A stretch of DNA of 64,000 nt, taken from assembly GCF_003052265.1 (NCBI RefSeq), contig NZ_QANS01000003.1, forward strand, positions 248,001 to 312,000, read 5' to 3'. The DNA is from Stenotrophobium rhamnosiphilum. GTDB lineage: Bacteria; Pseudomonadota; Gammaproteobacteria; Nevskiales; Nevskiaceae. The translations under genes and the position numbers were made by a program. The first letter of the stretch is position 1; each line of letters opens with the position of its first letter. The notes beneath the pieces were generated by a model. That model was given only the letters and a program-made list of their open reading frames with translations, was not told the DNA's origin and ran no database searches. Of this stretch, positions 48,124-58,167 are shown piece after piece.

Positions 48124-48522
48124 TTACTTTTTCTTAAGCAGATCGCGAATTTCTGCGAGCAGAACTTCCTGTGCTGGTGTGGCCGCAGGAGCTGCTGCTT
48201 CTTTCTTCTTAACCGAGTTCATCGCCTTAACGACAAGGAAGATCACGAATGCAACGATGACAAAGTTGATCATGGTCTGCAAAAACTTGCCGTAGGACAG
48301 CAGTACAGCAGGGGTTTTGCCATCTGCAGACGCTTCTTGCAGCACTAGCGCTGATTTGGAGAAATCGACGCCAGAGGTCGCCATGCCAATCACGGGCATC
48401 ACCACGTCGCCGACCAGCGAAGTCACGATGGCGCCAAAGGCTGCGCCGATCACGACACCAACGGCCAGATCAACAACGTTGCCACGCATCGCGAAATCTT
48501 TAAATTCTTTCATCATGCTCAT
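48124..48522 (-). CDS. mscL: large-conductance mechanosensitive channel
   Basis: A 132-residue homopentameric channel that opens under hypo-osmotic shock. It starts [24 protein letters not shown], which covers the N-terminal helix and TM1 with its gate glycines, and has TM2 [19 protein letters not shown] followed by a charged tail ending in lysines. Terminator follows. Sequence is typical in length. Confidence 0.97.
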
Positions 48523-48693
48523 GCGTATAACTCCTTCAAAAATACTTTGTGGTGAAAGCTAAAGCGGCATAGACGCACGATCTGCGACGCCCCGAAGGTG
48601 CTTATATAGCACTAAAAATATCCACAGCCATCGGGGTAAGAACACGATCGCGCGAAGGCTGTAAGACTAATCTGACATCGATGCCGTAAGCCT

Positions 48694-49572
48694 TCAAGTG
48701 CCAACGCAATGCGCCAGTCCGCGTGCAAGATCTGGATAGCGTGGTTCAAAGCCAAGCTGTTGCAGCATGCGTTCATTCTTGAGGCGTTTGGATTCTTCCA
48801 TGAAGGACCACATTGCTGGCGTGAAAATACGCCGCGCTTCATCCATCGAAACTTGTGGCGGTGGCGGCAAGTCGAGTAGCGCCGCGCACCGCGTGAAGTA
48901 ATCACACATCGTCGTCGGGTTACCGTCACTGATGTTGTAGGCCGCAGTGCGTGTGCCGTATGCGGCGGCGTGCAGAGCGGCTTCAGCCAGATCATCGCTG
49001 TGAATGCGATTGGTAAATGGCGACTCTTCTGCGCGCACCACCGGCAATTGTTTCTGTAATCGTTCTACGGGCAAACGGCCTGGGCCGTAGATGCCGGGTA
49101 CGCGCAGAATCACATAATCGCCGCCCCACATAGCGAGGGCCTGCTCGGCATCAAGACGACGTTGCGCACGTGCGCTGATCGGCTGCAGCGGCGCATCTTC
49201 ATCAATCCAACGCCCTTCACAATCGCCATAAACACCCGAGGTAGAGATGTAGACGATGCGCATGTCGCTATCGGGATTCGCATCTAGAAATCTGCGCAGT
49301 CGTAAATCACTGCTACCCGCATTTGATGGCGGTGCAAACCAGAACAGCAGTGGCGCATTCGCGGGCGGGGCCTCAGTATCAAGGTTGATCTGAAGTGTAG
49401 TTACGCCAGCTTGCGTGAGGTCGGCGGCGCTTTGATCGGACCGCACCACTCCGGTAACCTCGCGGCCCATCGTCAGTAGTCGCTGCGCGACGCGCAGGCC
49501 AACGTCGCCGCAGCCAACAATCAGCGCACGCGCTGGCAAAGCATCTTTAAGGGCAGGTTTAGAATTTTCCAT
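48694..49572 (-). CDS. NAD(P)-binding Rossmann protein (YeeZ-like epimerase family)
   Basis: A 292-residue atypical SDR with ALIVGCGDVGLRVAQRLL as the GxGxxG loop, YISTSGVYGDCEGRWIDE, and LRVPGIYGPGRLP. This matches the YeeZ / NAD-dependent epimerase-like family of unknown reaction. Its ATG (codon 49572-49570) overlaps the ATG of the divergent reductase gene by two bases; an internal TTG about 11 codons later is a possible alternative start that would remove the clash. Confidence 0.8.
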   Translation of the reverse strand: MENSKPALKDALPARALIVGCGDVGLRVAQRLLTMGREVTGVVRSDQSAADLTQAGVTTLQINLDTEAPPANAPLLFWFAPPSNAGSSDLRLRRFLDANPDSDMRIVYISTSGVYGDCEGRWIDEDAPLQPISARAQRRLDAEQALAMWGGDYVILRVPGIYGPGRLPVERLQKQLPVVRAEESPFTNRIHSDDLAEAALHAAAYGTRTAAYNISDGNPTTMCDYFTRCAALLDLPPPPQVSMDEARRIFTPAMWSFMEESKRLKNERMLQQLGFEPRYPDLARGLAHCVGT

Positions 49573-50590
49573 GACGCACCAAGTCTATCTTGTCGACCGC
49601 CCTGTCAGCTTTAGTGTTGATGAAGGCGAGACTTTGCTCGCTGCTGGATTGCGCCAACATCTGGCGCTGCCGTTTGGTTGTCAGAGCGGCGGTTGCGGCT
49701 CTTGTCGTGTGCGTCTGACTGCGGGAGAAGTGGAGTATCCCTTTGCGCCAGCCGCACTGTCGCAGGGCGAGATCGACGCCGGTTACATTCTCATGTGTCT
49801 CGCACGCGCAAAAAGCGATCTGACGATTGATCTGCATCAGCCTGCGCAGATTGAAGAATTGCGTCCGCGCAAATTGCCTTCGCGCGTGATGTACAAGCGC
49901 ATGCTTTCGCATGACGTGATTCAGCTGATGCTGAAGCTGCCCAAGGGCGACAACCTTCGCTATTTGCCGGGGCAATATCTCGACATTCTTTTGGAAGATG
50001 GTCGTCGCCGCAGCTTCTCCATTGCGAACGCGCCGAATGCGGAAACTTTGGAACTGCATTTGCGCATTGCGCCTGGTGGGCGTTTTGCCAAATGGGTGCT
50101 GGAAGAAATGCCAGAGAAGGCGATTCTGCGATTGGAAGCGCCGCTCGGTGCGTTTTATATCCGAGAGGATTCGCAGCGACCGATTGTGTTGATGGCGGGT
50201 GGCACGGGTTTTTCACCAGCCAAAGCAATGTTGGAAGAGCTTTTGCCAAAGCACAGTGCGCGTAGTGTGCATTTGTTCTGGGGTGGGCGAGCGCAGGAAG
50301 ATTTGTATATGGATGCGGAAGTGCGGGCGTGGGCTGAGCAGTATCCGCAGTTTCGATACACGCCGGTGCTTAGTGAGCCCAGTGCTGATTGGAAGGGGGA
50401 AACTGGGTTTGTGCACGAAGCGGTTTTGCGCGCGTATCCGGTTTTAGTGGGGCAGGAGATGTATTTGTGTGGGCCGCCGGTGATGGTGCAGGCGGGCAAG
50501 CGTGCGTTTCTTGCGGCTGGGCTCGATGCGGATCATCTTTTTTATGATTCTTTTGACTACGCTTTTGAGACTTGGCCTGCGCTGGGGTGA
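49571..50590 (+). CDS. 2Fe-2S / flavin NAD(P)H reductase (AscD-like)
   Basis: A 339-residue electron-transfer enzyme: N-terminal plant-type ferredoxin (FGCQSGGCGSCRVRL with the last Cys in ILMCLA), FAD domain with RRRSFSIANAP and NAD domain with VLMAGGTGFSPAKAML. Closest pattern is CDP-6-deoxy-glucoseen reductase / phenol hydroxylase reductase-like proteins often annotated AscD and sometimes paired with ubiD-type genes. Its true partner is not here. Confidence 0.87.
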   Translation: MTHQVYLVDRPVSFSVDEGETLLAAGLRQHLALPFGCQSGGCGSCRVRLTAGEVEYPFAPAALSQGEIDAGYILMCLARAKSDLTIDLHQPAQIEELRPRKLPSRVMYKRMLSHDVIQLMLKLPKGDNLRYLPGQYLDILLEDGRRRSFSIANAPNAETLELHLRIAPGGRFAKWVLEEMPEKAILRLEAPLGAFYIREDSQRPIVLMAGGTGFSPAKAMLEELLPKHSARSVHLFWGGRAQEDLYMDAEVRAWAEQYPQFRYTPVLSEPSADWKGETGFVHEAVLRAYPVLVGQEMYLCGPPVMVQAGKRAFLAAGLDADHLFYDSFDYAFETWPALG

Positions 50591-50592
50591 GG

Positions 50593-50783
50593 TTTGTCGC
50601 GCTGCGCGGGCTACTGCCTGTGCTGATTGAAGTGGCGTGTTCCGCGCTGTGGCGCGGGTTACTTTCTTTGGCGCAAAGAAAGTAACCAAAGAAACATCAC
50701 AAGCCCACTTTTACGGTTTTTGGGAATTGGCCAGATACGTTCGCCGACTAATCTCGTAATGCGAGAAAAAGTGTCGACCTCAG
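50593..50783 (+). repeat. dispersed repeat, copy D
   Basis: Core arms GTTACTTTCTTTG (50658-50670) and CAAAGAAAGTAAC (50674-50686). The 3' module shares GATACGTTCGCC (50734-50745) and the 24-base block 50758-50781 with copy C. The 265-base gap up to the transporter gene holds nothing else convincing. Confidence 0.85.
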
Positions 50784-50855
50784 CTGATCTGCAAATGAAC
50801 TACAGAAGAGAAACCACGTTTGGAAAAGCACGGCGCGTTGCGCCGCTTTTCACGA

Positions 50856-51818
50856 TTAAAAAAATCCGCGTCGCTTAAACAAATACAGCAATGCGCCGCC
50901 GATGCTGACTAGCAGTCCGAGCGCAAAGAAATATCCGTAGCGCCAATGCAGTTCAGGCATGTTCTCGAAGTTCATACCGTAGATACCCGTGATCAGTGTC
51001 AGCGGGAAGAAGATGGCGGACAACACGGTCAGTGTTTGCACGATCTTGTTGGTGTGATGCGTTACTGACGAGAAGTGCAGCTGTACGGCGGATTCGATAT
51101 CGCGTTCTTGATCGCGTGCGTGATCGAGTAGGCGGTCGACGTGTTCGCTTAGATCGCGCATGCGGACTTCTTCGTTGGCGCTCCAATCTGAGCGCGTGCC
51201 GCGACGCCAAGCGTCGATTGCTTCCAGCTGATTTTCTGACAACCATTCCAGCTTGCGCACCATGCGACGGCCAGCGAGTAGCGTGCGCCAGTCGTCGGTT
51301 TTGCTGGCGGGGTCGAGCAGTTCGTCTTGCAGCTCGGTGAAATACGCGTCCAGTGGTTCGCGGATTTTGAGAAAGCGATCGACCATCGTGTCGAGCACGG
51401 TGTGCGCAATTTTCAGAACGCTATCGGGTGGTTTGCCGCGGCCTTCGAGCATTTTTTTGCGCGCGAGACTCATGCTGACGTTGTCTGCGGCGTGGATGGT
51501 GATCAACACGCGCTCGAACATGAAGAACGCAGCGGTGCGGGTTTCCAAAGGGAATAGACGGTCTCTTGGGCCCAAGCCTTGGAACATCAACATGTCGTAA
51601 TCCAGCGTGCCGTCGAAAAACGACGGATGCGTGGGGTTGTGGCTATCGGCGACGTGCTGCGGCTCAATCGGCACGCCAATCAGTGGCTCGGCCCAGCATT
51701 CCCAGTGTTGGGCTTCATCTCGGCAGAAATCGACCCAGATCAAACCGTCTTCCGGGATTTGCCCGGTGTCGGTCAGAACCGTGGGCGTTGTGTCCGTGGC
51801 GAAATGCAGAATTTCCAT
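50856..51818 (-). CDS. CorA-family transporter (ZntB-like)
   Basis: A 320-residue CorA superfamily protein: large acidic N-terminal cytosolic domain, long stalk helices, then TM1 and the YGMNFENMPEL loop before TM2 (YFFALGLLVSIGGALLYLF). GMN is the ion-selectivity motif of CorA/ZntB. Lack of a clear MgtC-like feature and the overall pattern favour the ZntB/zinc branch, but Mg2+ or Co2+ transport is equally possible. Confidence 0.85.
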   Translation of the reverse strand: MEILHFATDTTPTVLTDTGQIPEDGLIWVDFCRDEAQHWECWAEPLIGVPIEPQHVADSHNPTHPSFFDGTLDYDMLMFQGLGPRDRLFPLETRTAAFFMFERVLITIHAADNVSMSLARKKMLEGRGKPPDSVLKIAHTVLDTMVDRFLKIREPLDAYFTELQDELLDPASKTDDWRTLLAGRRMVRKLEWLSENQLEAIDAWRRGTRSDWSANEEVRMRDLSEHVDRLLDHARDQERDIESAVQLHFSSVTHHTNKIVQTLTVLSAIFFPLTLITGIYGMNFENMPELHWRYGYFFALGLLVSIGGALLYLFKRRGFF

Positions 51819-51829
51819 CGTTGGTGGAA

Positions 51830-52453
51830 TCAGCTCGTGGCGGTGGTATGACCCATCAGCGTCAGGATGGTGGCAATGGCTTCTTCCAGACCGGTTTTCT
51901 CTTGTGAAGAAAATAGCTGGATGGTTGGACGCTGCTCATAGACTTCCAGTTCGCGACGCACTTTCAGCAGCTGGTTCTTAGACGCGCCAAAGCCGAGCTT
52001 GTCGGCCTTGGTCAGCAAGATGTGAACGGGTCGCGCGGCTTGCTGCGCCCAGTCCAGCATCTGCGTGTCGAAATCGGTCATCGGATGGCGGATATCCATA
52101 ATCAGGACAATGCCGCGCAGATTGGTGCGCACATCCACATAGTTGCCAATCAGCTTGCCCCAGCCTTTGCGCATCGCGGCGGGGACTTCGGCGTAGCCAT
52201 ATCCGGGCAAATCGGCAAAACGGCCGATATTCGGGATTTCGAACAGGTTAATGAGCTGCGTGCGGCCCGGCGTCTTACTGACTCGCGCGAGCTGTTTGTG
52301 GTTACAGATCGTGTTGAGCGCACTGGATTTGCCTGCGTTGGAGCGGCCGGCAAAGGCGATTTCGGGCTGCTCGTCGCGGGGTAATTGCTGCAGGTCGGCG
52401 CAGGAAATGCGGAATTCCGCGCGGGCGAAAGGATTGATTGCGGCTGAGGTCAT
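51830..52453 (-). CDS. engB: ribosome-biogenesis GTPase YihA/EngB
   Basis: A 207-residue GTPase needed for 50S assembly. P-loop AGRSNAGKSSALN, switch region RTQLINLF, DLPGYGYAEVP (G3) and TKADKLGFG (G4) are all present. It is divergent from the cytochrome c4 gene, the arrangement seen in Pseudomonas and relatives. Confidence 0.95.
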   Translation of the reverse strand: MTSAAINPFARAEFRISCADLQQLPRDEQPEIAFAGRSNAGKSSALNTICNHKQLARVSKTPGRTQLINLFEIPNIGRFADLPGYGYAEVPAAMRKGWGKLIGNYVDVRTNLRGIVLIMDIRHPMTDFDTQMLDWAQQAARPVHILLTKADKLGFGASKNQLLKVRRELEVYEQRPTIQLFSSQEKTGLEEAIATILTLMGHTTATS

Positions 52454-52621
52454 GGCGGCAGCTTAACGGAAATGAGCGCAATTTCGGGGCTGAAGCCGCG
52501 GGGGAGAGGCATTGGAATCCCCTGTTGGTGTAATATTTGCGCCGAACTAAACCGGATTTGTGCGCCCTTTCGACGGACGCATCCAACCGATACAACAAAA
52601 GCTTTATATGGAGCCTCATCA

Positions 52622-53254
52622 ATGAAGCGCGTTTTGCTTGCTCTTGCCCTGTCTGTACCCTTTGCTGCCTTTGCTGAAGGCGCTGCTAAAGATCTTTTTG
52701 TGAAGGGCGACGCCGCTGCCGGCGCGACCAAAGCCGCAGTTTGCGGCGCCTGCCACGGCCCTACCGGTAACGGCAGTGCTGCGATCTATCCCAAGCTCGC
52801 AGGCCAGAGCAGCAAATACGTTTACGAACAGCTCAGCGCGTTCAAGAGCGGCAAGCGTCAGAACCCGATCATGGCCGGCCAGGTTGCAAACCTGTCGGAT
52901 CAGGATCTGAAGGATCTCGCTGCGCACTACGCCACGCTCAAACTGACCCCGGGCCTTGCTAACAAGGATTCCGTAGCGATTGGCGACAAGCTCTATCGCG
53001 CTGGCGATGCGGCTCGCGGCATTCCCGCTTGCGCTTCATGCCACGGTCCTAAGGGTGCGGGTCAGCCATCGGTTGGCTATCCACGCATTGGCGGCCAGAA
53101 CGCCGAATACGCGCTGGCTTCGTTGCAGCGTTTGCACGGCACTTCGACGGAATCTTTGCCTGAAGGCAATGTCAAGATGATGGCGACCATCGCCGCCAAA
53201 CTCAGCGACAAGGAGATGGCAGCGTTGGCGTCTTACATCAACGGCCTGCAGTAA
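52622..53254 (+). CDS. dihaem cytochrome c4
   Basis: A 210-residue periplasmic cytochrome: signal peptide MKRVLLALALSVPFAAFA, then two c-type domains with CGACH and CASCH and methionine ligands (in NPIMAGQV and VKMMATIA). Cytochrome c4 passes electrons to terminal oxidases such as cbb3. ATG 52622 is chosen over an upstream in-frame start because the signal peptide begins there. dsbA follows after 17 bases. Confidence 0.92.
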   Translation: MKRVLLALALSVPFAAFAEGAAKDLFVKGDAAAGATKAAVCGACHGPTGNGSAAIYPKLAGQSSKYVYEQLSAFKSGKRQNPIMAGQVANLSDQDLKDLAAHYATLKLTPGLANKDSVAIGDKLYRAGDAARGIPACASCHGPKGAGQPSVGYPRIGGQNAEYALASLQRLHGTSTESLPEGNVKMMATIAAKLSDKEMAALASYINGLQ

Positions 53255-53271
53255 TCGAAAAAAGGATTCCC

Positions 53272-53925
53272 ATGCGTCTGCTTACTCGTCTTCTGGTTAC
53301 CGTTTCTGTTCTGTTGCCTATCGCCTGCTCGGCTGCCGCACCGGCGACCGATTACAAGGAAGGGACGCATTTCAAAAAGGTTCGCGAAGTCCAGGAGCCG
53401 ACGAATGCCAAGCGCATCGAAGTCGACGAATTCTTCTGGTACGGCTGCCCGCATTGCTATCACCTCGATGGCTTTGTGGATCGCTGGCGCGTAACCAAAC
53501 CGGCTGATGTGGATTTCGTACAAGTCCCAAACAGTCTCGGTCGCGAAGAAGGCATCATTCATAGCAAGGCGTTCTACACGGCTGAAGTGCTCGGCTTGTC
53601 GGCCAAGATCCACAAGCCTTTGTTCGAAGCCATTCACGAGCAGCATCAGCAGCTGTTCACGCAAGCGACGCTGCAGTCGTTCTTCACCGGCATGACGGGC
53701 GTTCTGCCTGATGTGTTCAACAACACCTTTAACGGTTTCGCTGTCGGCATGAAAGTGAACCGCGCAGAAAATCTGGCCAAGACCTACGGCATGGCCAGCG
53801 TTCCAGCGATTGTTGTTGGCGGCAAGTACACCACTAACGTCGCCATGGCAGGCGGCCCGGAACAGACGTTCAAGGTTGTTGATTTCTTGATCGCCAAAGT
53901 CCGCGCGGAACGCAAAGGAAAGTAA
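53272..53925 (+). CDS. dsbA: thiol:disulfide interchange protein DsbA
   Basis: A 217-residue periplasmic oxidase of protein thiols. Signal peptide about residues 1-23, active site Cys59-Pro-His-Cys62 in WYGCPHCYH, and the cis-proline region in ASVPAIVVGGKY. It follows cytochrome c4 as in many Gammaproteobacteria. An intrinsic terminator lies 22 bases past the stop, but inside the next coding region. Confidence 0.94.
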   Translation: MRLLTRLLVTVSVLLPIACSAAAPATDYKEGTHFKKVREVQEPTNAKRIEVDEFFWYGCPHCYHLDGFVDRWRVTKPADVDFVQVPNSLGREEGIIHSKAFYTAEVLGLSAKIHKPLFEAIHEQHQQLFTQATLQSFFTGMTGVLPDVFNNTFNGFAVGMKVNRAENLAKTYGMASVPAIVVGGKYTTNVAMAGGPEQTFKVVDFLIAKVRAERKGK

Positions 53926-54834
53926 GTGTCCAGAATTTCGCAGATCGCCCGGCTCACCGCCGGGCTTTTTGTTTGCAGCAGTGGCCTCGCAATGGCGGCC
54001 CCTGCAGTGTCGATGGAACGCGCTTGCGAGATGTTAGGCGCCAAGCTGCGCAGCGTTAATGTTGCTTACTGTCAGCAAAGCGGACTCAAGGCCAGCTCTT
54101 TCACCAGCGTGCGCGGCCAGCCGATTTTGTATCGCGACTACACCGCACGCACGCCGCAAGGTCCTAAGCCTTATCGCGTGTTGCTGCTCGGCGGCATTCA
54201 CGGCGATGAGCTTTCTGCAGTCAGCATCGTTTTCGACTGGATGCGCCGACTCGACACCGAAAAATTTCAGCAATTCGAATGGCGCGTGATGCCCTGTTTG
54301 AATCCGGATGGTTTGCTGGTGAGCCCAGCGACACGCACCAACGCCAATGGCGTCGACCTCAATCGCAATTTTCCAACACTCGATTGGAAGTCCGACGCGC
54401 TGCAGTACTGGAAGACCAAAGCGCGCAAAGATCCAAGACGTTATCCAGGCCCTAAAGCTTTGTCTGAGCCTGAGTCACGTGGGCTGATGGATATGCTCAA
54501 AGAGTTTCAGCCAGACGTGATTGTCAGCGTGCACGCACCATACGGCGTGCTTGATTTCGATGGCCCGCAAAAGCCACCACAGAAATTCGGCTATCTGTCT
54601 CTGCAGTTGCTGGGCACTTATCCGGGCTCACTCGGAAATTTTGCTGGCATGAATCTCAGCGTGCCAGTGATTACCTTGGAATTGCCAAGCGCGGGTCAGA
54701 TGCCGCCGCCACAGCAGGCGCAGCGTATTTGGGGCGATATGTTGGTGTGGCTGGAAAAGAATTTGCCGAAGCGGCCACCGGCGCAGTACAGCAAACTCGA
54801 AAAGCCGTTTGAGTCCGCTACGGCGACGCCGTAA
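53926..54834 (+). CDS. secreted M14-family peptidase, MpaA-like murein peptide amidase
   Basis: A 302-residue protein. Signal peptide about residues 1-25 (ending LAMAAP), zinc ligands His92 and Glu95 in GGIHGDELSAV and a third His in VSVHAPYG; GVDLNRNFP is the substrate-arginine/asparagine motif. MpaA-type enzymes remove the D-gamma-Glu-meso-DAP bond of muropeptides. GTG 53926 abuts the dsbA stop with AAAGGAAAG upstream; the next ATG (53992) would lose the export signal. Confidence 0.82.
   Translation: MSRISQIARLTAGLFVCSSGLAMAAPAVSMERACEMLGAKLRSVNVAYCQQSGLKASSFTSVRGQPILYRDYTARTPQGPKPYRVLLLGGIHGDELSAVSIVFDWMRRLDTEKFQQFEWRVMPCLNPDGLLVSPATRTNANGVDLNRNFPTLDWKSDALQYWKTKARKDPRRYPGPKALSEPESRGLMDMLKEFQPDVIVSVHAPYGVLDFDGPQKPPQKFGYLSLQLLGTYPGSLGNFAGMNLSVPVITLELPSAGQMPPPQQAQRIWGDMLVWLEKNLPKRPPAQYSKLEKPFESATATP
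53947..53974 (+). terminator. intrinsic terminator inside the M14 signal-peptide codons
   Basis: GCCCGGC (53947-53953) and GCCGGGC (53959-53965) pair perfectly around TCACC, followed by TTTTTGTTT (53966-53974). It follows dsbA by 22 bases, but codes residues ~8-16 of the next protein. Confidence 0.7.
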
Positions 54835-54840
54835 TTCTGG

Positions 54841-56019
54841 CTAGCGATTTTCCTCGCGGAAAATTTTCCACTCGCCGTCTTTATCCTGACGCCAGTACTG
54901 TTGTTTCACCGACGTCGAAGAGAAGTTGTCGCTGCGATAATCCAGCGTGAACTCCGCCAGCATCATTGGCTCGCCTGCGCCGGGATAGCGGAACAAATTG
55001 ATGTGACGCAGCTTCACATCAATAAATTTCTTTGAACTGTTGACGCGCACTTTATGTGCTGCGAACTGCGCAAAATTCATCCCGTCGGTTGTGAAGCCCT
55101 GACCGTAATACGCCAGATAAGCTTCAGTGTCTCGCTCAGCCCATTTGCTACGCCAATCTTCAAGGCGCGCCAAAAATTTTTCGCGCTCGCCTTTGACTTG
55201 ATCAGGCGGCACCCACTCCAGCGAATCGCTGAGAATCACCGGCGTCTCGCCCGTGACGATGTAAGGTTTCAGCGCCACAAGATCTTCGTTAGACATCGTC
55301 ACGCAGCCTTCGCTCGAACGCGGTGCCCGCACATAAGTATCTTTAGGTACGCCGTGCAGCCAGATGCCATAGCCGCTGCGGCTGTTGAACTGATCCCAGA
55401 GGTTTGGATAGTTGAGCGGGAACGCGCCTTCACCATAAAGGTCAGGCAAATTCACTTTCGGCAACCAACCGGTGATGTGATAAATGCCGATCGGTGTGCG
55501 CAGATCGCCAGCGCTTTGTTTGCCATAACCGTTGCGGCCGATGCTGGCGTAATGATTCCGCACCAACGTCATTTCGCGATCTTTGCTGTTCTGCATCAGA
55601 TACAGACGCGCTTTAGGCAGATCCACCAAAATGAAAAAAGGATGTTCTGAATCCAGCTGCAATACGGAATTTGGCACATAGCCCGTAGGTGGCACGGCCT
55701 TGTCACCCAGTGCGCGCAGACGCGCTTCTTCCGTGAGATCGCTGAGTCGTGGATCGCCCTGCGTATCGATCAGCGTGCCGCCCGGCAACCCGGCCAGCAG
55801 TTCACCGTAAATTTGTTTAGCTAAGCGAAAATTAGGCAGGCGCTGTGTGAGGTCTTGCAACGAGCTGCGAGCGCCTTCGCTATCGCCGCTCTTCATTTTG
55901 GCAACAGCAGACAGCAGCTGTTGCTCGGGGCTCAAGTCCGCAGCAGATGCGCAGACACTGGCCACCATTAAAAATGCGGCCAGCGCATGCGCTGGCCGCG
56001 ATGATTGTTTCAAACGCAT
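54841..56019 (-). CDS. L,D-transpeptidase with C-terminal NTF2-like domain
   Basis: A 392-residue exported enzyme: signal peptide about residues 1-26, an N-terminal helical part, a YkuD catalytic domain with YGIWLHGVP and SSEGCVTMS (Cys239 as nucleophile), and a C-terminal ~110-residue domain starting WRSKWAERDTEAYLAYYG. It should make or remodel peptidoglycan 3-3 or lipoprotein links. The C-terminal domain recurs in the next gene. Confidence 0.87.
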   Translation of the reverse strand: MRLKQSSRPAHALAAFLMVASVCASAADLSPEQQLLSAVAKMKSGDSEGARSSLQDLTQRLPNFRLAKQIYGELLAGLPGGTLIDTQGDPRLSDLTEEARLRALGDKAVPPTGYVPNSVLQLDSEHPFFILVDLPKARLYLMQNSKDREMTLVRNHYASIGRNGYGKQSAGDLRTPIGIYHITGWLPKVNLPDLYGEGAFPLNYPNLWDQFNSRSGYGIWLHGVPKDTYVRAPRSSEGCVTMSNEDLVALKPYIVTGETPVILSDSLEWVPPDQVKGEREKFLARLEDWRSKWAERDTEAYLAYYGQGFTTDGMNFAQFAAHKVRVNSSKKFIDVKLRHINLFRYPGAGEPMMLAEFTLDYRSDNFSSTSVKQQYWRQDKDGEWKIFREENR

Positions 56020-56038
56020 CTAAAGTTCTGATCTCAAC

Positions 56039-57058
56039 TTAGCGTGAATACTCACGAGTAATTTTCCAAGCGCCATTCACTTGCTTGAGTTCCAGAATTT
56101 TATTCACGGAGTCTGAGTAGTTGTCTGATTGGTAGCTTTGCTGAAAGCTGACGCGCGCGCGGTCATCGCTGATACGAGTGGTCTTAGCATTCTTGATGCC
56201 GATTTTGATGCGCGCAGGTTTGAGAATGCGCTCGCGACGTTGCTCAGCCCAAGCAGAGCGCAGCTGGCCACCTTCAGGTGAAAAGTCGTCGGCGTAGAAA
56301 GCAAGGTACCCAGGAGCATCCTTGGAAGACCAAGCTTGGCTCCAGCTGTTCAGCATCGCAGTAACAGTCACCGTGGTAGCTGCATCAGCAGGCGCCGTGG
56401 CTTTAGCTGCGGCTGCGCTAGGTGCTGCGGCAACTGGAGCAGCTGCTGCAGGCAATACAGGTGATGTTGCAGCAATAGCTGCAACGGCTGCTGGTGCGGG
56501 CGTTGATGTCGCAGGTTTTGCCGCCGGAGCTTTCGCTACAGGCACATTGTTGATGGGCTTTTCGACTTGGCTAATCAGATCAAGTTTGCTGCGAACCGTT
56601 TGGTTGCTCTTATCGAGCGTCAATGCGCGGTTGTACGAAGCACCAGCCAGTGCAGCGTAAATATCGCCGAGATTTTCGTGTGCAGTGGCGTAGCTCGGAT
56701 GCGTTGCCAATGCAGCTTCCAGCGCATCGCGCGCTTTTTCGTAATTGCCCTGCTGCGCATAAAGCACAGCGAGATTGTTGTATGGCTCGGGCAGCTGCGG
56801 ATAATCGCGCGTTAGATCGGTGAAGGCCTTCATCGCTTCAGGCGTGCGATTGAGTTTGGTCAATGCAATGCCGCGTGAGAAACGCGCTTCAGCGTCTTGT
56901 GGATTTTTGGCCAGATGCTGGTCGAGCTTCTGCAACGCTTGAGCATATTGCCCCTGCGCCATCAGGCCGCGTGCATCGTCTGCAGGACCAGCAAAAGCGC
57001 TATGTGCGCTAAACAACAGAATGGCGGCCAGCGCCGTGCTACGAGTATTGAGAGTCAC
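56039..57058 (-). CDS. TPR protein with the same C-terminal domain as the L,D-transpeptidase
   Basis: A 339-residue exported protein: signal peptide, about four tetratricopeptide units (AEARFSRGIALTKLNRTPEA, YNNLAVLYAQQGNYEKARDA), an Ala/Pro-rich linker and a C-terminal domain WSQAWSSKDAPGYLAFYADD that is clearly homologous to the end of the adjacent L,D-transpeptidase. It lies 19 bases upstream of that gene on the same strand, so the two are one operon and probably act together in the periplasm. Confidence 0.82.
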   Translation of the reverse strand: MTLNTRSTALAAILLFSAHSAFAGPADDARGLMAQGQYAQALQKLDQHLAKNPQDAEARFSRGIALTKLNRTPEAMKAFTDLTRDYPQLPEPYNNLAVLYAQQGNYEKARDALEAALATHPSYATAHENLGDIYAALAGASYNRALTLDKSNQTVRSKLDLISQVEKPINNVPVAKAPAAKPATSTPAPAAVAAIAATSPVLPAAAAPVAAAPSAAAAKATAPADAATTVTVTAMLNSWSQAWSSKDAPGYLAFYADDFSPEGGQLRSAWAEQRRERILKPARIKIGIKNAKTTRISDDRARVSFQQSYQSDNYSDSVNKILELKQVNGAWKITREYSR

Positions 57059-57169
57059 GCAAAACCTCGATGGATATCGGTCAAATGCATATGGACTTTA
57101 ATATAGCTCATCCACTGCAACTGAGAGTTTAATCTGCACGCTAAAGCTTCGGCTTTCCGCTAAGTGGCG

Positions 57170-58096
57170 TCAGCGAACGGCATAAGGGTTGGGCATGCCA
57201 GCCGGAGGGTGCTTGAAGCGACGGTGAGACCAGAAATATTGCGCAGGCGCAATTCGGATGCCTTCTTCCAGCATGCGATTGATCAGTGCTGCGTCAGCGG
57301 CCTCGTCTGCGCTAGGGAAATTCTCCAACGCAGGGAGAAACGTCACACGATAACGGCCATTAATGCGCGCTGGAAAATACGGCACGACTTTGGCACGACC
57401 CAGCGCAGCAAGTTTCGACGTCGCGGTGAGCGTCAGCGTCGGCACATTGAAAAACGGCACATGCACGGCGTTGTTCACGTCCAGCGATTGATCCGGCCCA
57501 TACCAAACGCAATGGCCTTCGCGCAGCGCGCGAACCAGTTTTTTCAGATCGTTCTTAGGCAATGCAGGCAGACCCGAGCGCGATTGGCGCCAGCGGTGCA
57601 TAAAGAAGTCGATCAGCGGATTGTCGATCGGGCGATACATGGCGTGAAACTTCACACCCGCAAGACACAGATATCGCGCGCCAACTTCTAACGTTGTGAA
57701 ATGGCCGGTGAGCAACAACACACCGCTGCCATCCGCCATTGCAGCTTGCAGATGTTCCAAGCCCACAACTTCGCCGCGATTGCGCAGTCGCCAGTCGGGA
57801 GCAAACCAACCGATCGCAGCTTCGAATGCGCCAGCGCCGAGCGCCATAAAATGTTCATCAACCATGTCGTCGCGCGTTGCTTCGTCGAGCTCCGGGAAAC
57901 ACAGTTGCAGATTCACGCGAGTGACGTGACGGCGGCTGCGCAACGCGCGCCCCAGTAGCCAGCCCAGTCCCTTGCCCAAGTTCAGCGCTAACGGAATCGG
58001 CAGCCAAGACAGCAGCCACAACAACGCTAAGCCCAGCCACGTTGGCCAGTAACGAGGGCCTAGAAAGGCCTTCTTAAAGGGCGGTGCAGAATTCAT
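57170..58096 (-). CDS. lpxL: lipid A biosynthesis lauroyl-type acyltransferase
   Basis: A 308-residue late acyltransferase: N-terminal membrane anchor, LTGHFTTLEVG (HX4E), AMYRPIDNPL, GPDQSLD and YFWSHRRFKHPP near the end, the standard LpxL pattern. It transfers a secondary acyl chain to Kdo2-lipid IVA. It is divergent from waaA, the Kdo transferase that makes its substrate, with 71 bases between. An ATG three codons upstream is also possible. Confidence 0.88.
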   Translation of the reverse strand: MNSAPPFKKAFLGPRYWPTWLGLALLWLLSWLPIPLALNLGKGLGWLLGRALRSRRHVTRVNLQLCFPELDEATRDDMVDEHFMALGAGAFEAAIGWFAPDWRLRNRGEVVGLEHLQAAMADGSGVLLLTGHFTTLEVGARYLCLAGVKFHAMYRPIDNPLIDFFMHRWRQSRSGLPALPKNDLKKLVRALREGHCVWYGPDQSLDVNNAVHVPFFNVPTLTLTATSKLAALGRAKVVPYFPARINGRYRVTFLPALENFPSADEAADAALINRMLEEGIRIAPAQYFWSHRRFKHPPAGMPNPYAVR

Positions 58097-58167
58097 TGAC
58101 CGCATTTTATAAAAATGCGACCACAATCGACACCCCATCCCCGGCGTATATTTTGCTCATAGCCGTT

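Follow-up and report, generated by a model that had tools for sequence, protein, structure and literature searches.

The gene of an M14-family peptidase that directly follows dsbA in Stenotrophobium rhamnosiphilum probably carries the predicted intrinsic terminator of dsbA within its own signal-peptide codons. Comparative analysis of the sequences suggests that this element is held in place by selection on the nucleic acid, and that the peptidase is a read-through gene because a transcript of its whole open reading frame must cross the terminator, wherever the promoter lies. It is usually assumed that a sequence either encodes protein or acts as an intrinsic terminator, and gene prediction is carried out separately from terminator prediction. 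At this locus, one set of 27 bases appears to do both in dozens of related species across a bacterial family, and nucleic acid rather than protein appears to fix them.

A predicted terminator overlaps the first codons of the peptidase gene

The locus is contained in the window, a stretch of 64,000 nucleotides of contig NZ_QANS01000003.1 to which all coordinates refer unless another genome or locus is named. The following features were assigned:

53272..53925, + strand: dsbA (217 aa; Pfam DSBA, 8e-11), the gene that the predicted terminator would end
53914..53919, + strand: AAAGGA, a putative Shine-Dalgarno-like motif within the final dsbA codons, 6 nt 5' of the GTG
53926..53928, + strand: GTG, probable start of the M14 peptidase and the sole in-frame ATG, GTG or TTG 5' of the stem
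53926..54834, + strand: M14-family peptidase/amidase gene (302-aa open reading frame; PF00246 zinc-carboxypeptidase domain, 1.7e-17)
53926..53997, + strand: signal-peptide codons, MSRISQIARLTAGLFVCSSGLAMA, with cleavage before APA judged by eye and from hydropathy
53947..53953, + strand: 5' arm of the stem, GCCCGGC (Ala, Arg and the first base of Leu)
53954-53958, + strand: loop, TCACC (5 nt)
53959..53965, + strand: 3' arm of the stem, GCCGGGC (Ala, Gly and the first base of Leu)
53966..53974, + strand: T-tract, TTTTTGTTT, read as CTT TTT GTT (Leu-Phe-Val) plus the first base of TGC
54841..56019, - strand: convergent gene with YkuD L,D-transpeptidase and Cds6_C domains, its end 6 bp from the end of the peptidase gene

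The TAA stop codon of dsbA (53923-53925) directly abuts the GTG of the peptidase, and the distance from the dsbA stop to the stem is 21 nt. The stem begins at codon 8 of the peptidase and the T-tract spans codons 14-17. The predicted terminator overlaps residues 8-17 of the signal peptide, and its 3' arm and T-tract encode the hydrophobic core. Hairpin, T-tract and reading frame agree with the original prediction, which had placed a terminator in the peptidase codons right after dsbA. The peptidase is MpaA-like by profile, with a score below the MpaA equivalog cut-off (94.9 versus 157 bits), and its M14 domain (residues 60-204) lies 3' of the predicted terminator. Since the peptidase and L,D-transpeptidase genes end only 6 bp apart (54834-54841), read-through transcripts would be antisense to the latter.

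The hairpin alone, with seven G-C pairs and a 5-nt loop, has a predicted free energy of -14.8 kcal/mol, and a T-tract directly 3' of this G+C-rich hairpin gives it the make-up of an intrinsic terminator. We scored it with a d'Aubenton Carafa-type formula, in which d > 15 is taken as terminator-like, and obtained d = 41.0 at the dsbA-peptidase junction. When compared to shuffled sequences, the 65-nt region folds moderately better (z -1.36, with 21 of 200 shuffles equally good), and a simple scan of 16 kb returned 34 terminator-like sites versus 21.0 (sd 5.2) expected. Given this modest z and the many sites in the scan, the single sequence by itself proves little. The position of the site stands out against 452 kb of this contig, where 354 genes were called heuristically and the scan returned 59 terminator-like sites (d > 15). 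Of these 59, the dsbA-peptidase site alone follows a gene on its own strand by at most 80 nt while also lying in the open reading frame that comes next on that strand; by the heuristic calls, no site falls within the part of a same-strand gene that was scored on codons.

We also considered a high-copy repeat as the origin of the element and rejected it, as the stem with a T-tract occurs at just four places in the genome (seven strand hits). At the three other places (G000, C16:497448-497472, C18:141255-141279 and C19:323566-323590), the 7-bp stem is the same, the loop measures 3 nt and both strands bear T-tracts; these sites are probably bidirectional terminators.

The hairpin is conserved in frame across the family

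We extended the analysis to 58 genomes of one family, with the family f5 as outgroup. Relatives of dsbA are present in 56 of the 58 genomes and a strong peptidase match in 44 (E below 1e-80), which adjoins dsbA in 43. An in-frame hairpin with seven of seven pairs and 6-8 T in the next nine bases was found in 31 of these 43 adjacent dsbA-peptidase pairs, a count that excludes the outgroup and G029, whose peptidase lies away from dsbA. The layout of dsbA stop, stem and peptidase, which leaves a transcript no way round, is common to all 31 genomes. A scan that disregards the reading frame ranked this hairpin first in each of them (d 21.4-49.2) and returned no site with d > 15 in the 15 adjacent pairs that lack it. 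These comprise 12 pairs of the family (eight in g6, two in g3 and one each in g2 and g5) and all three adjacent pairs of the outgroup, so that expression of the peptidase in general does not require the hairpin. The locus of G028 was counted as unlinked; it is probably a further adjacent pair without the hairpin, since its contig ends soon after dsbA and the next frame resembles the start of a g6 peptidase.

Palindromes serve other purposes as well, and the hairpin might be an element of RNA stability, RNA processing or DNA binding rather than a terminator. We regard this as very unlikely: the T-tract is one-sided and immediately 3' of the stem in all 31 genomes, the region 53200-54900 has no match to Rfam 15 at gathering score, and relatives show the same layout after dsbA with stems of other sequence. 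The distance from the dsbA stop to the stem is 17-27 nt in 25 of the 31 genomes and 35-59 nt in the other six (g4 and g7). As the dsbA genes of unlinked relatives show similar distances (18-40 nt), this spacing is not peculiar to the linked state.

Stem and T-tract are fixed at the level of codons

In the 31 genomes, the consensus codons of the stem and the beginning of the T-tract read GCC/ACC-CGG-...-GCC/GTC-GGG-CTT/TTT, and several of them are otherwise uncommon. CGG is used at the stem in all 31 genomes while making up 0.178 of the arginine codons in these genes, and GGG is likewise used in 31 of 31 (0.093 of the glycine codons). In the T-tract, CTT encodes leucine in 27 of 27 cases (0.029 of the leucine codons in these genes) and GTT valine in 20 of 22 (0.069 of the valine codons); TTT occurs in 23 of 31 (0.165). 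When only positions with the same amino acid are compared, codon identity amounts to 1.000 at codons 1, 2, 5, 6 and 7 of the element and to 0.604 and 0.824 at codons 8 and 9. The loop codons 3 and 4 yield 0.419 and 0.460. The corresponding reference values are 0.596 (mature peptidase) and 0.646 (dsbA), and only four of 275 columns elsewhere reach 0.99 or more. Fixed arms and a fixed T-tail around a free loop are the signature of a terminator rather than of a peptide.

It is conceivable that the residues A-R-L-x-A-G-L-F-V are needed as a signal peptide and that the hairpin merely follows from codon bias, given that conservation of this motif extends over the 31 genomes and that T-rich codons naturally encode hydrophobic residues. 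This would not account for rare codons that are used and fixed in the stem and T-tract only. Furthermore, when the peptides were recoded by the codon usage of each genome, an equally high terminator score arose in only 5 of 6200 draws, and 20,000 draws per genome gave a perfect stem with T-tract in 0 to 0.4%. Twelve relatives in the family possess signal peptides without the motif, and residues change in step such that the outer pair is preserved (see below). Hence, constraint on the protein alone is refuted at the sequence level by the codon statistics, and we assign next to no probability to it. A peptide that is kept while stem and T-tract are lost, the outcome that the original prediction had named as contradicting it, did not occur.

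Covariation of the stem was analyzed in 22 of the 31 rows; those set aside were eight duplicates and G053, whose loop contains a 3-nt insertion. In these 22 distinct sequences, 154 of 154 pair cells are standard, compared to 26.6-57.1% with a slid partner. The outer pair has changed from G-C to A-U in G054 (g12) and in G033 and G035 (g8), and the full change alters two residues, Ala to Thr and Leu to Phe. A G.U intermediate at the outer pair is found in G053 (g12), a close relative of G054. As g8 and g12 stand apart on the tree and each has relatives with G-C, the outer pair must by inspection have changed at least twice. Double-sided change affects one of the seven pairs only and five pairs never vary, and shuffles reach two of the five covariation measures, namely the number of double-change pairs (194 of 500) and of further pair types (500 of 500).

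The peptidase start probably lies upstream of the hairpin

A codon-usage gene caller preferred 53992, 45 nt after the start of the stem, as the start of the peptidase. If the peptidase indeed started at a site such as ATG 53992, the hairpin would be an ordinary intergenic terminator of dsbA in a frame that is open by chance, and 23 of the 31 genomes offer some start codon between the stem and residue 34. We consider this improbable. The remaining 8 genomes possess no ATG, GTG or TTG in this interval, and their frame must therefore cross the hairpin. In 30 of 31 genomes, an open frame extends from an upstream start across the hairpin, the exception being locus L028 with no ATG, GTG or TTG within 60 nt 5' of the stem. 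The sole insertion in the element, in G053 (L025), is 3 nt long and located in the loop, leaving both frame and stem intact. A late start would also remove an N-terminus that in each genome has charged residues ahead of a hydrophobic segment (best 12-aa hydropathy 1.87-2.71) and that, as MSRISQIARLTAGLFVCSSGLAMA-APAV in the window, reads by eye as a signal peptide. Taken together, these observations support a real start upstream of the hairpin. The caller will have chosen 53992 because the codons of the terminator look non-coding. Automated annotation may likewise mis-start the peptidase and its relatives, which should be taken as a warning that codon-based start prediction will mis-start genes of this kind.

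Candidate starts upstream of the stem are mostly weak: the most upstream one within 60 nt is GTG in 20 genomes, ATG in seven, TTG in three and absent in one. We rejected a weak start as a trait of the hairpin genomes, as several relatives without the hairpin also lack an ATG. As to a promoter of the peptidase's own, a sigma-70 scan found no + strand site in 48506-58127, but with three sites overall, compared to 8.7 in shuffles, this result carries little weight. From a promoter within dsbA the peptidase would gain no bypass, because the transcript would still cross the terminator. A weak promoter 3' of the hairpin could possibly give a shorter protein without signal peptide in the 23 genomes that have a later start.

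Read-through may make the peptidase the weaker gene of the pair

With the terminator of dsbA inside the peptidase gene, the terminator would set the yield of the peptidase below that of dsbA, as an attenuator of the frdD/ampC kind. RNA ends would be expected at 53970-53975. Read-through would mostly be a fixed minority that is little influenced by ribosomes starting on the peptidase, and might be tuned by how tightly the ribosome finishing dsbA trails RNA polymerase. A terminated dsbA mRNA would contain the peptidase start without a stop codon, and a ribosome initiating there would run off its end.

Already characterized systems share parts of this arrangement. In frdD/ampC of E. coli and nlpD1-penA of Burkholderia (PMC6045580), the terminator of the upstream gene is described as an attenuator of a next gene that depends on read-through; the nlpD1-penA terminator, as reported, is untranslated and located 25-73 nt before the start codon, whereas that of dsbA-peptidase lies inside signal-peptide codons. 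We file the dsbA-peptidase pair as a putative variant of the upstream-terminator attenuator, in which the terminator is part of the second coding sequence. The synthetic W48 operon (PMC4824070) likewise combines an upstream gene, a terminator about 30 bp into the second open reading frame and non-stop mRNAs, but is described as an artificial construct with tR2, whereas dsbA-peptidase is natural and family-wide. Expression of the upstream reporter in W48 was reported to be down by about half because the terminated mRNAs are non-stop (PMC4824070), which predicts a non-stop cost at dsbA that weak initiation of the peptidase would limit.

In arfA and brfA (PMC8012679, PMC6881298), an intrinsic terminator is also reported within the reading frame and the terminated mRNA lacks a stop codon; synonymous mutations abolished termination in brfA. 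The terminator of these two genes is described as close to their 3' end, and the shortened protein is the active one, controlled by tmRNA. The peptidase terminator occupies the first codons, and a protein shortened there would be no more than a signal-peptide fragment without use. No more than about 15 codons lie ahead of the T-tract's end and the M14 domain is downstream, which sets the locus apart from the arfA/brfA type. Terminator and codons share bases as well in convergently overlapping genes of E. coli (PMC2174442), where the terminators described lie on the opposite strand at convergent 3' ends, while dsbA and the peptidase are co-directional and the 5' end of the second gene is concerned. 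Our searches of the open-licence literature yielded no paper on the dsbA-peptidase locus, nor on any downstream gene with a terminator in its signal-peptide codons.

If ribosomes matter, those finishing dsbA are likelier candidates than those starting the peptidase

The original prediction held that a ribosome starting at GTG 53926 would cover the hairpin, and that translation of the peptidase could decide between termination and read-through. The leading edge of a ribosome is at about +15 from the start codon. The stem begins 21 nt past the first base of the GTG, and so a ribosome on the start codon would not cover it; it would do so a few codons on. Initiation at this GTG, or reinitiation after dsbA, could hence unfold the hairpin, with the rate of translation deciding on read-through. 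The GTG abutting the TAA, with AAAGGA 6 nt upstream, is compatible with this explanation, as are the candidate starts 36-42 nt 5' of the stem in 18 of 31 genomes, mostly within the end of dsbA. Translation through a hairpin is also reported to suppress termination in the pil1 leader of S. gallolyticus (PMC3894217), where the end of translation relative to the terminator hairpin sets read-through; the pil1 leader, as described, encodes a dedicated repeat-bearing leader peptide, while at dsbA-peptidase the neighboring genes themselves are translated. In the W48 operon, with a start 30 bp before the terminator, translation was reported to cut termination by just about 10% (PMC4824070). Furthermore, the distance from start to stem varies from 15 to about 57 nt in the hairpin genomes and thus provides no fixed footprint, and we saw neither upstream sequence conservation nor an antiterminator among them. 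We consequently consider gating by ribosomes that start the peptidase unlikely.

Pairing of the 5' arm with the 80 nt upstream amounts to -4.1 to -13.2 kcal/mol versus -13.4 to -16.1 kcal/mol for the hairpin, and is stronger in none of the 31 genomes. An antiterminator or a leader-peptide attenuator was therefore rejected, with no stronger upstream pairing, no separate leader open reading frame, no Rfam match and a variable distance from start to stem.

If ribosomes matter at all, it is likelier the one finishing dsbA than the one starting the peptidase. In E. coli, tR2 is reported to give almost no termination with its stem a few bp past the upstream stop codon; efficiency rises gradually with the distance from stop to stem, up to a maximum beyond about 27-30 nt, and amounts to 0.12 or 0.8 at 17-18 nt depending on context (PMC4824070). 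Terminators placed up to 100 bp into a coding region are reported as efficient (PMC4824070, Li et al. 2015). Since the distance of 17-27 nt in 25 of 31 genomes is within this graded range (PMC4824070), the ribosome finishing dsbA could modulate read-through. One might go further and suppose that the terminator acts as a sensor of coupling, in which a closely trailing dsbA ribosome causes read-through and the envelope peptidase is made in proportion to well-coupled translation of dsbA; we consider this a tentative and rather doubtful extension. The locus offers a natural system for studying early in-gene terminators against ribosomes in vivo and the coping with non-stop mRNAs.

The terminator persists without the peptidase

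In the genome G038, no ortholog of the peptidase was found (best E 5.9e-4). Its dsbA and the convergent L,D-transpeptidase gene are separated by 128 bp, and the terminator is retained between them (L099, 1394-1523). In the dsbA tree, G038 is placed among five g10 hairpin genomes (99). As G038 keeps the terminator without the peptidase, the terminator would serve dsbA or protect the convergent gene. The frame of the terminator in L099 is open for some codons past the terminator.

Unlinked dsbA genes of relatives are followed by an ordinary terminator (d > 15) in 8 of 19 fetched loci. Two more (L095 and L097) are terminator-like by eye, with longer or imperfect stems and d < 15. The terminator in L121 is clear, and the site at +69 in L103 is not a terminator. 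The loci L090, L092, L094 and L096 of peptidase-less g6 genomes carry inverted repeats or hairpin-like sequence after dsbA, with no T-tract.

For the history of the hairpin, we used a tree of concatenated dsbA and peptidase (46 rows, f5 as outgroup). A single clade of hairpin genomes was rejected (p-AU 0.00104), and at least two changes are required. Most simply, the hairpin would have been gained once, when g2, g3 and g5 had already split off, and lost once in g6, the sister of g12; two independent gains are possible. Long branches of g2, g3 and g5 make the deep order unsure. The original prediction had offered a dsbA terminator overgrown by the next gene. Dual use is borne out by conservation at the nucleotide level in 31 of 43 pairs, by the terminators of unlinked dsbA genes and by G038. 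The order of events is less sure: since dsbA and peptidase are adjacent without a terminator in the outgroup family and in the four genera g2, g3, g5 and g6, the terminator may instead have arisen inside a pre-existing signal peptide.

The locus raises the question of whether the hydrophobic core of a signal peptide can derive from a T-tract. Translated as Leu-Phe-Val, T-tracts could more generally be the seed of signal peptides, and the TamA-like gene of G064 may be cited in this regard. In this f5 genome (L119, - strand, about 837-700), dsbA is followed by the terminator GGGCGGC-TACGA-GCCGCCC-TTTTTGTG, which lies within the open frame of a TamA-like POTRA gene (PF17243, 4.5e-16), with a signal-peptide-like segment after the T-tract. 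G064 is possibly a second, independent case of an in-frame dsbA terminator. The TamA-like gene could start at a TTG inside dsbA or at a TTG in the T-tract.
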